DNA of 64,000 nt, from positions 11,990,501 through 12,054,500 of the forward strand of contig NZ_CP011509.1 of the NCBI RefSeq assembly GCF_001027285.1. Direction: 5' to 3'. Position numbers and translations under genes: made by a program. Shown here one piece after another: positions 29,963-32,757 of this stretch. Each line of letters starts with the position of its first letter. Position 1 is the first letter of the stretch. The notes under the pieces are model-generated. The model searched no databases, was not told where the DNA came from, and was given only the letters and a program-made list of their open reading frames with translations. Source of the stretch: Archangium gephyra (GTDB lineage Bacteria > Myxococcota > Myxococcia > Myxococcales > Myxococcaceae).

Positions 29963-30418
29963 TCAGCCGTTGTTGTTGTTATTGTTGTTGTTATTGTTGT
30001 TGTTGTTGTTGTTGTTGTTGTTGTTGCTCTGTCTGCCCTCGCCCAGGCGCTGGTTGCCCTCGGGCTCGTCGGGGCCGCCAGGCAGACCCAGGACAAGGCC
30101 GGCCGTGCCCATCATCACGAGGTGCCCGGAGCGCGCGTAGGCCTGCGGGTCGATGATGGAGAGCTTCTTGCGGTCGCACCAGATGGTCTGGTGCTCCTTC
30201 ACCTGGGGCAGGGAGAAGCTCCGCGTGAGCTGGTCTCCCGCGTAGCAGTGGATGTTGGCCCTGCTGTAGATGGCATGGGGCTTCGAGGCCTCCTCCGTCA
30301 TCAACCAGTTCACCAGCCACTCCTCGATCTGCGTCCGCGCGGGGCCGTCCTCCAGCCGCAAGGCATTCAGGAAGCACTCCACCGTGTGCGCGGTACGCGC
30401 CATCTCCTGGGGATTCAC
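29963..30418 (-). CDS. 151-residue protein with C-terminal polyasparagine tail, linked to radical SAM gene
   Basis: Residues 1-115 look like a small folded domain (EEWLVNWLMTEEA, HCYAGDQLTRSFSLPQVKEHQTIWCDRKK, GHLVMMGTAGLVLGLPGG). Then comes a Gly/Glu/Gln linker, Ser131, nineteen Asn (132-150) and a final Gly. No signal peptide is seen. It follows the radical SAM gene by 15 bases on the same strand and is surely cotranscribed. A leader-like body with a repetitive polar tail beside a SPASM-type radical SAM enzyme is the layout of a modified-peptide (RiPP) precursor. The precursor idea is inference: the tail may also be microsatellite expansion. No family recognised. Confidence 0.65.
   Translation of the reverse strand: MNPQEMARTAHTVECFLNALRLEDGPARTQIEEWLVNWLMTEEASKPHAIYSRANIHCYAGDQLTRSFSLPQVKEHQTIWCDRKKLSIIDPQAYARSGHLVMMGTAGLVLGLPGGPDEPEGNQRLGEGRQSNNNNNNNNNNNNNNNNNNNG
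29969..30025. repeat. Trinucleotide microsatellite (GTT/ATT)19
   Basis: Nineteen consecutive triplets, seventeen GTT and two ATT on the plus strand, read as AAC/AAT (Asn) on the minus strand. This is a rare low-GC simple repeat in very GC-rich DNA. Triplet slippage would change the tail length without shifting the frame. Confidence 0.95.
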
Positions 30419-30433
30419 GCCGGGATTCCTTCC

Positions 30434-32266
30434 TCAGGGCACATAGAAGAACTCGAAGTTCTGGAACGGCAGGTTGATGGCCTGGATGTGGTAGAACGCG
30501 TTGTTCTTCTGCTTTTGATAGTGATACTCGCGCAGGTACTGCGTGGTGACGAACAGGTTGTTCGACACCTGTGGCAGGTAGAGCGAGCGGTGCAGGTGGA
30601 GGATGCCCCCGAGGTCCGCCATCACGTACTCCTCCCCCAGCGAGTCACTGGGCTCCAGGCAGTGGAAATGGAGCTGGTACGTGAACAGGTGCTCCTGCTT
30701 GGTGCGCTTCTCGTCCCCGTAGATGACCGGGGTGTCCCGCAGCAGTTGCAGGTACAGCGTGTTGCGGATGGGCTCCGGACACGCCTTCTGGAAGAGCTCC
30801 TTGCGCACGTGGAGCCGCAGCCGGTCCTCTTTCGTCAGCGTGAACACCGAGCGCTCGCGCTTGAGCAGCTGGGAGGAGAGGGGCAGGCGCTCCTCCCCCA
30901 TCTCCAGCACGAAGGCCTCGTGGGAGTAGAGGGCCTGGAGCGTCTCGTCCTCCGCGATCAGGGCGGGGAGCGTGTTCTTCTCCTGGTACAGATCGTTCGG
31001 CAGCAGCACCCCGGGCCGGGGAGGAGGCGCCTCCGCGAAGGCGAGGCGCGGGTGCATGTTGCGCGCATACCACCGCGCGTAGTCCTGCTGCGCCTCGGGC
31101 GGGTCCTCGGGGAACGAGCGCGGGTTGTCCGTGTAGAGGGCCTTCTGCAGCTCGCACGTGTACGACTTCGCGCTCTTCATCTGCAGCTTCACCGCGGGGC
31201 ATCCGGTCCTGCACAGGCGCAGGTGGCCGCAGCTCTGACAGCTCGAGTCGAAGCCCTGGGCCTGGTGCAGCGCGCTCACCTTCCGGGCACCCGTGGCGAG
31301 AATCTGCTCGACGGAGTCGGTGAACACGTTGCCGTAGTGGAGCTCCTCGAGCCCCTGCCCGCGCACGCACGAGTACACCGAGCCATCACTCTGCAGCAGG
31401 AAGAAGCGCTCGCCGCAATTGAAGGCGCTGGTGCAATAGGACGGCTTGAACTCGTCGAACCAGTTGCGCCGCAGCCCTTCCTCGAGCTCCGTACCCGCGA
31501 AGGCCTCGTTCAGCGCCCGGTACAGCTCCATCTGCTTCGCGGGCGAGGCCTGCGTCAGCGGCGACTTGCCCTTGCTCACCTCATGCGTCTCGTTGAGCGC
31601 CGACTCGAACGCGAACATCACGTTGAACCGGTTCATGTCGAAGCCCAGCTCGCGATGGATGAACCAGATGTCGTCGATGATGGCCGGGATGTCCGCCAGG
31701 TGCTCCTCGCACAGGGTGGCAGAGATCTTCTTCGCGTGCGGATAGCGCGCCAGCAGGCGCAGGTTCTCCAGCGTCTTGTCCAGCCAGCTCGCCCCACCGC
31801 GCGTGGTGCGGTGCTTCGCGTGGAGCGCCAGCGGCAGGTCGATGCTCGCGCTGATGGAGACCTTGTGCTTCACGAACAGATCGTAGAGCGGGGCGAACCG
31901 GTACAGGTTCGTCTTGATGTGCGGCACGCTCTTGGGCTGCCCCAGCGCGGAGAGCGCGTCGAAGTGGCCCATGTAGTAGCCACGGATGAGCGTGAACAGC
32001 TCCTCCAGCACCGCCGGAGGCATCGTGGTGACCTCGCCCCCGTGGAGCGAGACGTTGAAGGCGAGAACCCCGGCCGCCTCGAAGGCGTCCAGGGCGTGCC
32101 GCAACGTGGCGGTGGCGCGGGCCGCGTCCTTCTTGAGCGTGTTCCGGGTGGTCTGGTCCCCGAGGTAGCAGTAGCTGCAACCCAGGTTGCAGCCCAGCGT
32201 GGGCACGTAGAGCAGGTGGATGTGACGGGAGTACTCCCGCTGGGGCTTCAGCTGGGGCGCGTTCAT
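30434..32266 (-). CDS. Radical SAM/SPASM enzyme with long C-terminal extension
   Basis: A 610-residue protein from the ATG at 32266. The radical SAM cluster motif is CNLGCSYC (C26, C30, C33), and LHGGEVTT matches the SAM-contacting GGE. The auxiliary SPASM region (about 310-400) has CGERFFLLQSDGSVYSC, then CQSCGHLRLCRTGC and a last YTCE, enough cysteines for two extra [4Fe-4S] clusters. The final ~210 residues are a separate unknown domain with many aromatic residues, ending NLPFQNFEFFYVP. SPASM enzymes mostly modify ribosomal peptides or enzymes by radical chemistry. It is centred in a tight operon between a membrane protein and the polyasparagine-tailed protein, its likely substrate (inference). 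Confidence 0.85.
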   Translation of the reverse strand: MNAPQLKPQREYSRHIHLLYVPTLGCNLGCSYCYLGDQTTRNTLKKDAARATATLRHALDAFEAAGVLAFNVSLHGGEVTTMPPAVLEELFTLIRGYYMGHFDALSALGQPKSVPHIKTNLYRFAPLYDLFVKHKVSISASIDLPLALHAKHRTTRGGASWLDKTLENLRLLARYPHAKKISATLCEEHLADIPAIIDDIWFIHRELGFDMNRFNVMFAFESALNETHEVSKGKSPLTQASPAKQMELYRALNEAFAGTELEEGLRRNWFDEFKPSYCTSAFNCGERFFLLQSDGSVYSCVRGQGLEELHYGNVFTDSVEQILATGARKVSALHQAQGFDSSCQSCGHLRLCRTGCPAVKLQMKSAKSYTCELQKALYTDNPRSFPEDPPEAQQDYARWYARNMHPRLAFAEAPPPRPGVLLPNDLYQEKNTLPALIAEDETLQALYSHEAFVLEMGEERLPLSSQLLKRERSVFTLTKEDRLRLHVRKELFQKACPEPIRNTLYLQLLRDTPVIYGDEKRTKQEHLFTYQLHFHCLEPSDSLGEEYVMADLGGILHLHRSLYLPQVSNNLFVTTQYLREYHYQKQKNNAFYHIQAINLPFQNFEFFYVP

Positions 32267-32274
32267 GGCGGGCT

Positions 32275-32757
32275 TCAGGTGCCAGTCTCCAGCAGGCCGT
32301 CCCTCACATCCGAGAGATCCGCGTGGGGGGCGGCGCGGCGCACGTGCTTCAAGATCTTCTGCGCCACCTTCTGGAACCGGGCCGCCTTGTTGGCCGCGAT
32401 CTTGTCCGGCTTGCGGGCCCCCGTCTGGAACCTGTCCTGCTCCAGCACCAGCACCCGGCCCGTGGACGACTTGAGCACGAGCCGTTCCCCGCCGGCCTCC
32501 ATCGAGACCCGCTGGATGTTGGCGTAGTACAGGATCTTCCCGCCGCAGATGAGATAGCGGGGCCCCACGTAGAGCCGCTTGGGTGGCCGGGCGACCACCA
32601 CGGCCGCGAACCCCAGGGCGAGGACCAAGGGGAAGAAGACGAACAGCGCTCCGACGGCGGCGCCCAGGATGAGCGCGAGCGCCCCCCACCGGGCACCGCT
32701 CAAGCTCACCGGCTCGCCATGATCGTACTTGATCAGGGCGAACTTCTTGCGATCCAT
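32275..32757 (-). CDS. Membrane protein, first gene of the radical SAM operon
   Basis: A 160-residue protein. Residues 20-57 hold two close membrane segments (WGALALILGAAVGALFVFFPLVLALGFAAVVVA), followed by a beta-rich part (LYVGPRYLICGGKILYYANIQRVSMEAGGERLVLKSSTGRVLVL) that resembles a bacterial PH-like domain. Its C-terminal region is basic and helical. It starts at ATG 32757 and ends 8 bases before the radical SAM start. It could anchor or transport the modified product, which is inference. No specific family recognised. Confidence 0.6.
   Translation of the reverse strand: MDRKKFALIKYDHGEPVSLSGARWGALALILGAAVGALFVFFPLVLALGFAAVVVARPPKRLYVGPRYLICGGKILYYANIQRVSMEAGGERLVLKSSTGRVLVLEQDRFQTGARKPDKIAANKAARFQKVAQKILKHVRRAAPHADLSDVRDGLLETGT

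Follow-up and report, generated by a model that had tools for sequence, protein, structure and literature searches.

A radical SAM/SPASM enzyme from Archangium gephyra and its relatives in bacteria and phages, most often encoded next to proteins with C-terminal asparagine runs

We studied a stretch of 64,000 nucleotides from Archangium gephyra (in the following the window; positions 11,990,501-12,054,500 of a single-contig genome of 12.49 Mb) with a focus on three minus-strand genes at 29963-32757. In order of transcription, they encode a membrane protein, a radical S-adenosylmethionine (SAM)/SPASM enzyme and a protein that ends in a run of asparagines (Asn), which we call the carrier. A preliminary description made from the letters alone had already listed this trio, and most of its layout holds: the intergenic gaps are 8 and 15 bases long, the enzyme has 610 residues with the cysteines C26/C30/C33 and a SPASM set, and the 151-residue carrier does end in Asn19-Gly. 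The membrane protein had been described as having two segments. Here, we find a single long hydrophobic stretch (hydropathy windows above 1.5 begin at residues 22-40), with which two segments are compatible. The respective features are given below together with the data on which each assignment is based.

32275-32757, minus strand: 160-residue membrane protein with a hydrophobic stretch and, after it, a soluble C-terminal part
30434-32266, minus strand: radical SAM/SPASM enzyme, 610 residues (profile matches, alignment, AlphaFold model)
31457-32227, minus strand: radical SAM core of the enzyme, about residues 14-270, with the CxxxCxxC motif C26/C30/C33 (Pfam, alignment, model)
31112-31435, minus strand: SPASM region of the enzyme, residues 278-385, with eight invariant cysteines (NCBIfam, alignment)
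30434-31006, minus strand: C-terminal domain of the enzyme, residues 421-610, containing the strongly conserved LREYHYQKQKNNAFYHIQAINLPFQNFEF stretch (alignment)
29963-30418, minus strand: carrier and proposed substrate, 151 residues, GTG start (alignment; relatives adjoin the enzyme)
30119-30418, minus strand: folded N-terminal domain of the carrier, residues 1-100 (AlphaFold confidence)
30071-30121, minus strand: hydrophobic segment of the carrier ahead of the tail, residues 100-116 (hydropathy)
29969-30025, minus strand: 19 Asn codons (17 AAC, 2 AAT), then a single Gly codon and the stop

Relatives of the enzyme were collected by scanning one genome per species with short peptide patterns, which yielded 37 loci (a lower bound) whose record labels name Myxococcota, Pseudomonadota, Thermodesulfobacteriota and Bacillota. 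For 36/37 relatives, a run of at least 6 Asn adjoins the enzyme; the contig of the remaining one (L034) ends 180 bases past the enzyme gene. The preliminary description had named homologues without an Asn-tailed neighbour as counter-evidence to its proposal; among these bacteria we find none that clearly lacks one, while beyond bacteria one clear exception is known from a viral contig (L098, see below). When both strands of the 37 loci are read (438,986 bases), each of the 36 holds exactly one run of at least 6 Asn codons and no second one. Of the 30 other radical SAM matches in the A. gephyra genome, 8 were inspected with their surroundings (27,879 bases), which hold no Asn run of at least 5.

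The linkage also holds for genomes that were searched as a whole. Given the enzyme's C-terminal domain as query, members are found in 7/117 genomes of the order of Trichlorobacter, 3/399 of the order of Acidovorax, 2/295 of the order of Acetatifactor and 3/391 of the class of a Clostridia metagenome-assembled genome (known members included). Additional members from whole-genome searches (L069, L071, L136) each have a C-terminal Asn run next door. For the order of Trichlorobacter, a profile of the carrier retrieves the same 7/117 genomes as the enzyme and no others, and both genes are neighbours in all 7.

We also evaluated the codon usage of 39 tails with 564 Asn codons in total (the tails of L028 and L041 are partial). 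The tails use 356 AAC and 208 AAT codons, a ratio similar to that of the enzyme genes (661:324). Run length spans 6 to 27 Asn, and the longest stretch of identical codons is at most 4 in 34/39 tails. Adjacent tail codons switch 282 times, compared to a mean of 246.8 after shuffling, and the observed count was reached in 3/5000 shuffles. Such mixing of AAC and AAT within the run argues for selection on the protein and against DNA slippage. Together with the variable length, it suggests that the run tolerates few substitutions but can vary freely in length, as would be the case if the run itself were what is recognised. The alternative, i.e., a microsatellite made by slippage, or a tail that is neutral or prone to aggregation and has nothing to do with the enzyme, could draw on the mostly AAC tail of the window (17/19) and on pure runs of 9-11 identical codons in 3/39 tails. 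It is, however, at odds with the short identical-codon stretches of most tails, with the position of the run beside the enzyme in four phyla and its absence near the 8 other radical SAM genes, and with the Asn runs that accompany the enzyme in phage fibres; we consider it highly improbable. Slippage or a low-complexity artefact is ruled out by codon mixing and conservation across phyla, and contradicted by the phage fibres as well. As judged from the codons, the Asn run is thus selected at the protein level, with slippage excluded as its origin.

Next to the run, the carrier consists of a folded front and a disordered end. The predicted local distance difference test (pLDDT) score of its AlphaFold model is 87-95 per ten-residue block up to residue 90 and below 50 at residues 107-137. 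A PDB search with the folded domain returned no match at E <= 0.001. We aligned 34 carriers, omitting L026 (where the frame continues past the run), L028 and L041 (interrupted by assembly gaps) and L034 (truncated). The hydrophobic segment exceeds the threshold in 30/34 (missing in L021, L045, L047 and L048), and a loosely defined, signal-peptidase-like small-x-Ala motif follows it in 28/34. The residue ahead of the run is Ser in 31 carriers, and the last residue is Gly in 33/34 and Asn in 1/34. Only G104 and the Asn columns are invariant. The N-terminal domain is conserved within Proteobacteria; in the carriers of Clostridia and Lachnospiraceae, the rest of the protein is almost wholly changed and the Asn tail is retained.

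A folded domain that is conserved within Proteobacteria would fit a carrier whose Asn run serves, unmodified, for recognition or docking, with the reaction of the enzyme taking place at another site of the carrier or on a different molecule. On the other hand, only G104 and the Asn columns are invariant, and inspection by eye shows no other obvious similarity between phage fibres and bacterial carriers, and therefore no other common target on the partner is seen. We regard a mere docking role as unlikely.

The phage evidence starts from two full-length homologues of the enzyme with 34% identity (tblastn), one in a plasmid-collection record, which is a Campylobacter coli element with phage tail genes, and one in the record of Campylobacter phage CAM-P21. 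In each of these two records, the enzyme gene is the second one after a tail-fibre gene, and the C terminus of the fibre reads TNNNNY. CAM-P21, a Mu-like phage whose enzyme is 34% identical over 97% of the query, differs from the window unit in that its client is a tail fibre, its run has 4 residues and a 211-residue phage protein, unlike the bacterial carrier (by eye), is encoded in between. Further loci came from viral contigs. Among 15 enzyme-bearing phage loci, 14 have a neighbour with a terminal run of 2-5 Asn; the ends are NNNNY in 9, GNNF in 3, CNNNNN in 1 and MGNNS in 1, with none in L098.

As a control, we fetched 28 loci by the N-terminal part of the fibre alone, which gave 26 complete fibres. 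Within these fibres, all sharing one N-terminal domain, the Asn-run end is found in 7/7 with the enzyme (5 NNNNY, 2 GNNF) and in 0/19 without it, where 4 of the 19 enzyme-less loci (L113, L121, L124, L132) cover less than 1,500 bases past the fibre and the fibre of L131 has just 197 residues. The gene of the 211-residue protein, which starts about 10 bases past the fibre in enzyme loci, was found in none of the 19 enzyme-less loci. Eight more fibres from named Campylobacter, Helicobacter or Sulfurimonas phage records without an enzyme match show no Asn-run end (0/8). In total, 274 phage records share a similar fibre N terminus, of which 9 were examined (CAM-P21 and the eight enzyme-less ones). 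In the enzyme-less phages L138-L145, the site of the 211-residue gene and the enzyme is taken by a gene for a smaller protein after the fibre (annotated as DUF4376 in several records), and in some of them a DUF1353 gene comes next. With these genes at its place, the phage enzyme looks like a swapped-in module.

Regarding the enzyme itself, its assignment to the radical SAM proteins is based on the CxxxCxxC motif and on alignments to radical SAM folds; the Pfam family Radical_SAM (PF04055) scores 31.4 bits in the genome search (cut-off 29.5) and 28.0 on the protein. SPASM membership follows from the NCBIfam model TIGR04085 (44.3 bits, cut-off 27), with the Pfam SPASM family slightly under its cut-off (20.7 vs. 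21.5). The best NCBIfam match is TIGR03942 (anaerobic sulfatase maturase), but its 72.9 bits are far under the cut-off of 349.45, which rules out a sulfatase maturase identity. Among the best 25 of 43 matching families, all NCBIfam models of SPASM maturases for ribosomally synthesised and post-translationally modified peptides (RiPPs) are under their cut-offs. Both the window enzyme (residues 5-606, E 1.5e-43) and the Campylobacter phage enzyme (E 6.4e-142) match the PHROG family phrog_1802 over their full length. This entry is annotated as 'radical SAM domain-containing protein' (category 'other') and names no reaction, substrate or Asn-run partner. A defence system was rejected as well, as PADLOC offered just a weak viperin match on the enzyme (E 0.0032).

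The AlphaFold model of the enzyme has a mean pLDDT of 88.2. Its residues 14-385 align best to an anaerobic sulfatase-maturating enzyme (anSME) among the solved folds (4k38_A; Z 28.0, root-mean-square deviation 3.5 over 338 residues), and further alignments are found to ChlB, CteB and SuiB and, at low rank, to EpeE (Z about 15). The SPASM cysteine layout is also that of anSME. The window enzyme differs by its extra C-terminal domain and by a Val after C300, at the position of the anSME catalytic Asp (Asp277). For the C-terminal domain, none of 23 members matches a Pfam family with an E-value better than 0.02; it is possibly a tail- or carrier-binding part. SPASM RiPP maturases (CteB, SuiB, ChlB; GrrM/OscB, DynA) follow the general scheme of an enzyme with an adjacent substrate protein. 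The window unit likewise encodes a ribosomal precursor beside a modifying-type enzyme, but the proposed target is an Asn homopolymer without Cys or aromatics, and the carrier begins with a folded domain of some 100 residues.

We propose that the enzyme is a SPASM-type radical SAM maturase that targets the Asn run at the extreme C terminus of its partner, and assign this reading a probability of about 0.62. The enzyme would bind the carrier, the disordered tail would enter the active site, and its Asn residues would be modified repeatedly. The preliminary description had taken the tail for the modified core; its role as enzyme substrate appears well supported by association across genomes.

Several observations weigh against this proposal. 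All links between enzyme and tail are associative, and two bacterial loci depart from the common layout: in L026 the frame continues past the Asn run, and in L047 a 281-residue gene lies between carrier and enzyme. Within the phages, the viral contig L098 (4755-5995) carries an enzyme with 36% identity and no Asn run. The run is only 2 Asn long in four phage loci, in two of which (L096, L102) the contig shows an interrupted reading frame for the enzyme, and for L096 and L097 the Asn-ending gene is termed a fibre by position only. Finally, the phage rows are closely related and many are near-identical, such that 7/7 vs. 0/19 does not represent 26 independent events, and a handful of independent swaps rather than 34 has to be assumed. 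The neighbour in L098 has 172 residues and a Cys-rich end, and is possibly another kind of client.

The preliminary description had named epimerisation, crosslinking and oxidation as possible reactions. The likeliest chemistry would be a net two-electron oxidation at the Asn C-alpha or C-beta, i.e., a cross-link or desaturation. All three cysteines of the SAM cluster (C26, C30, C33) and eight of the SPASM region (C278, C284, C300, C343, C346, C352, C356, C371) are kept in 38/38 aligned enzymes; these 11 are the invariant ones and all are expected cluster ligands. The SPASM region is thus expected to hold two auxiliary clusters, by analogy to anSME, which has two fully ligated ones. No Cys beyond these ligands is invariant across the 38 enzymes (best: C496, 36/38). 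Enough cysteines for two fully ligated auxiliary clusters and no invariant spare donor mildly favour oxidation or cross-linking over epimerisation, although this is a weak argument.

In radical SAM peptide epimerases, the hydrogen is donated by a Cys; for EpeE, a C223A mutant is named in structure entry titles. A conserved non-cluster donor Cys of the EpeE/PoyD type is not found here, which mildly disfavours epimerisation, while sequence alone leaves another donor possible. If alternate Asn were converted to D-Asn, the tail could adopt a beta-helix, as do Asn-rich parts of polytheonamide. A homopolymer of variable length would fit such repeated epimerisation, and the low-ranking structural alignment to EpeE exists. 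Nevertheless, the phage runs of 2-5 Asn are too short for a beta-helix, and with the missing donor Cys we judge the conversion to D-Asn improbable.

The fate of the tail is a further question. The preliminary description had expected a RiPP-like product, of which the adjacent precursor stands. A classical RiPP, in which the tail would be cleaved and set free as a small modified peptide, is compatible with tail modification and differs in what becomes of the tail. It would agree with the hydrophobic stretch of 30/34 carriers and the small-x-Ala motif that follows it in 28, but this motif test is loose and four carriers are without the stretch. Furthermore, a neighbour clustering revealed no widely common protease or exporter family, where the clustering is crude (the gene caller recovered the enzyme in 32/38 loci, and clusters were named by eye). 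Since the Asn run of the phages stands at the end of a structural tail fibre, the target resembles a protein tail more than a released peptide. A released peptide product is therefore not supported, and we think it rather unlikely. The hydrophobic segment of the carriers and the neighbouring membrane proteins (the small one in 32/37 loci) suggest a bacterial product at the membrane. In bacteria, the modified tail would probably remain part of the membrane-linked protein, partnered by the small membrane protein; phages would carry it as a decoration at the end of the fibre.

In proteobacterial relatives, the unit usually starts with the gene of the 160-residue membrane protein. A relative of it lies upstream of the enzyme in 32/37 loci (tblastn), with no match in L018, L041 (only 225 bases upstream), L045, L047 and L048. 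It has no Pfam match, and 28 relatives gave only weak, scattered ones. At two Lachnospiraceae-type loci, LRR_5 and Zn-ribbon proteins replace the small membrane protein, i.e., the partner set differs from that of Proteobacteria. Respective single loci vary further. In L085 (3985-8584; Lachnospirales), as in L048, the flanking genes of the unit encode a BspA-type LRR_5 protein and a Zn-ribbon membrane protein. In the Clostridia locus L137 (5088-5789, 6637-7713), a potassium-channel-like protein comes after the Asn-tail gene, and a second radical SAM-like protein is encoded at a greater distance (both by eye). A transposase-like reading frame (by eye) takes the usual place of the membrane gene directly upstream of the enzyme in L018 (1-1100).

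The distribution of the unit is patchy. The closest named relative of the enzyme is from Archangium violaceum Cb vi76 (93% identical). Within the source's order, the enzyme is present in 2/145 genomes, both of the same genus, and the same holds for the carrier; the C-terminal domain of the enzyme is found in the same 2 genomes among 195 of the phylum, a set that evidently excludes L016 and L038, which are labelled Myxococcota in the enzyme tree. Given this rarity, the unit was probably moved horizontally. Rows of Myxococcota and Pseudomonadota are intermingled in the enzyme tree, which comes with long-branch warnings. We sought an empty insertion site in sister genomes; the 507-residue upstream neighbour belongs to a multi-copy family within the genus. 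This neighbour (32842-34365) has a weak ChaN/Tiki-like Pfam match under the cut-off. On the other side, a convergent gene (28080-29894) encodes tandem PDSGTDIPDSGTD-type repeats close to the N terminus and matches no Pfam family.

Within open-licence literature, we found no paper on a radical SAM enzyme that acts on an Asn run or a tail fibre, and among the matches listed for polyasparagine and bacteria no title refers to a radical SAM enzyme. T4-like Campylobacter phages are described with 11-12 radical SAM proteins and a suggested metabolic role (PMC2853527), and five such proteins are reported for another phage (PMC12398825). Yeast prion background is covered by PMC6400439.

At a broader level, the enzymes may form a dedicated family that modifies C-terminal Asn runs on unrelated proteins, i.e., a membrane-linked carrier in bacteria and fibre tips in phages, which we consider an even bet. 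To our knowledge, a homopolymeric Asn target is unlike the known peptide substrates of radical SAM enzymes, and modification of tail fibres by a radical SAM enzyme, as suggested by the phage loci, would be without precedent. The variable tail length would imply that one enzyme acts repeatedly, and the fibres with and without the enzyme provide a natural experiment. If true, this would be a portable post-translational 'Asn-tip' chemistry, for which we know of no described counterpart and which phages would use to build their fibre tips.

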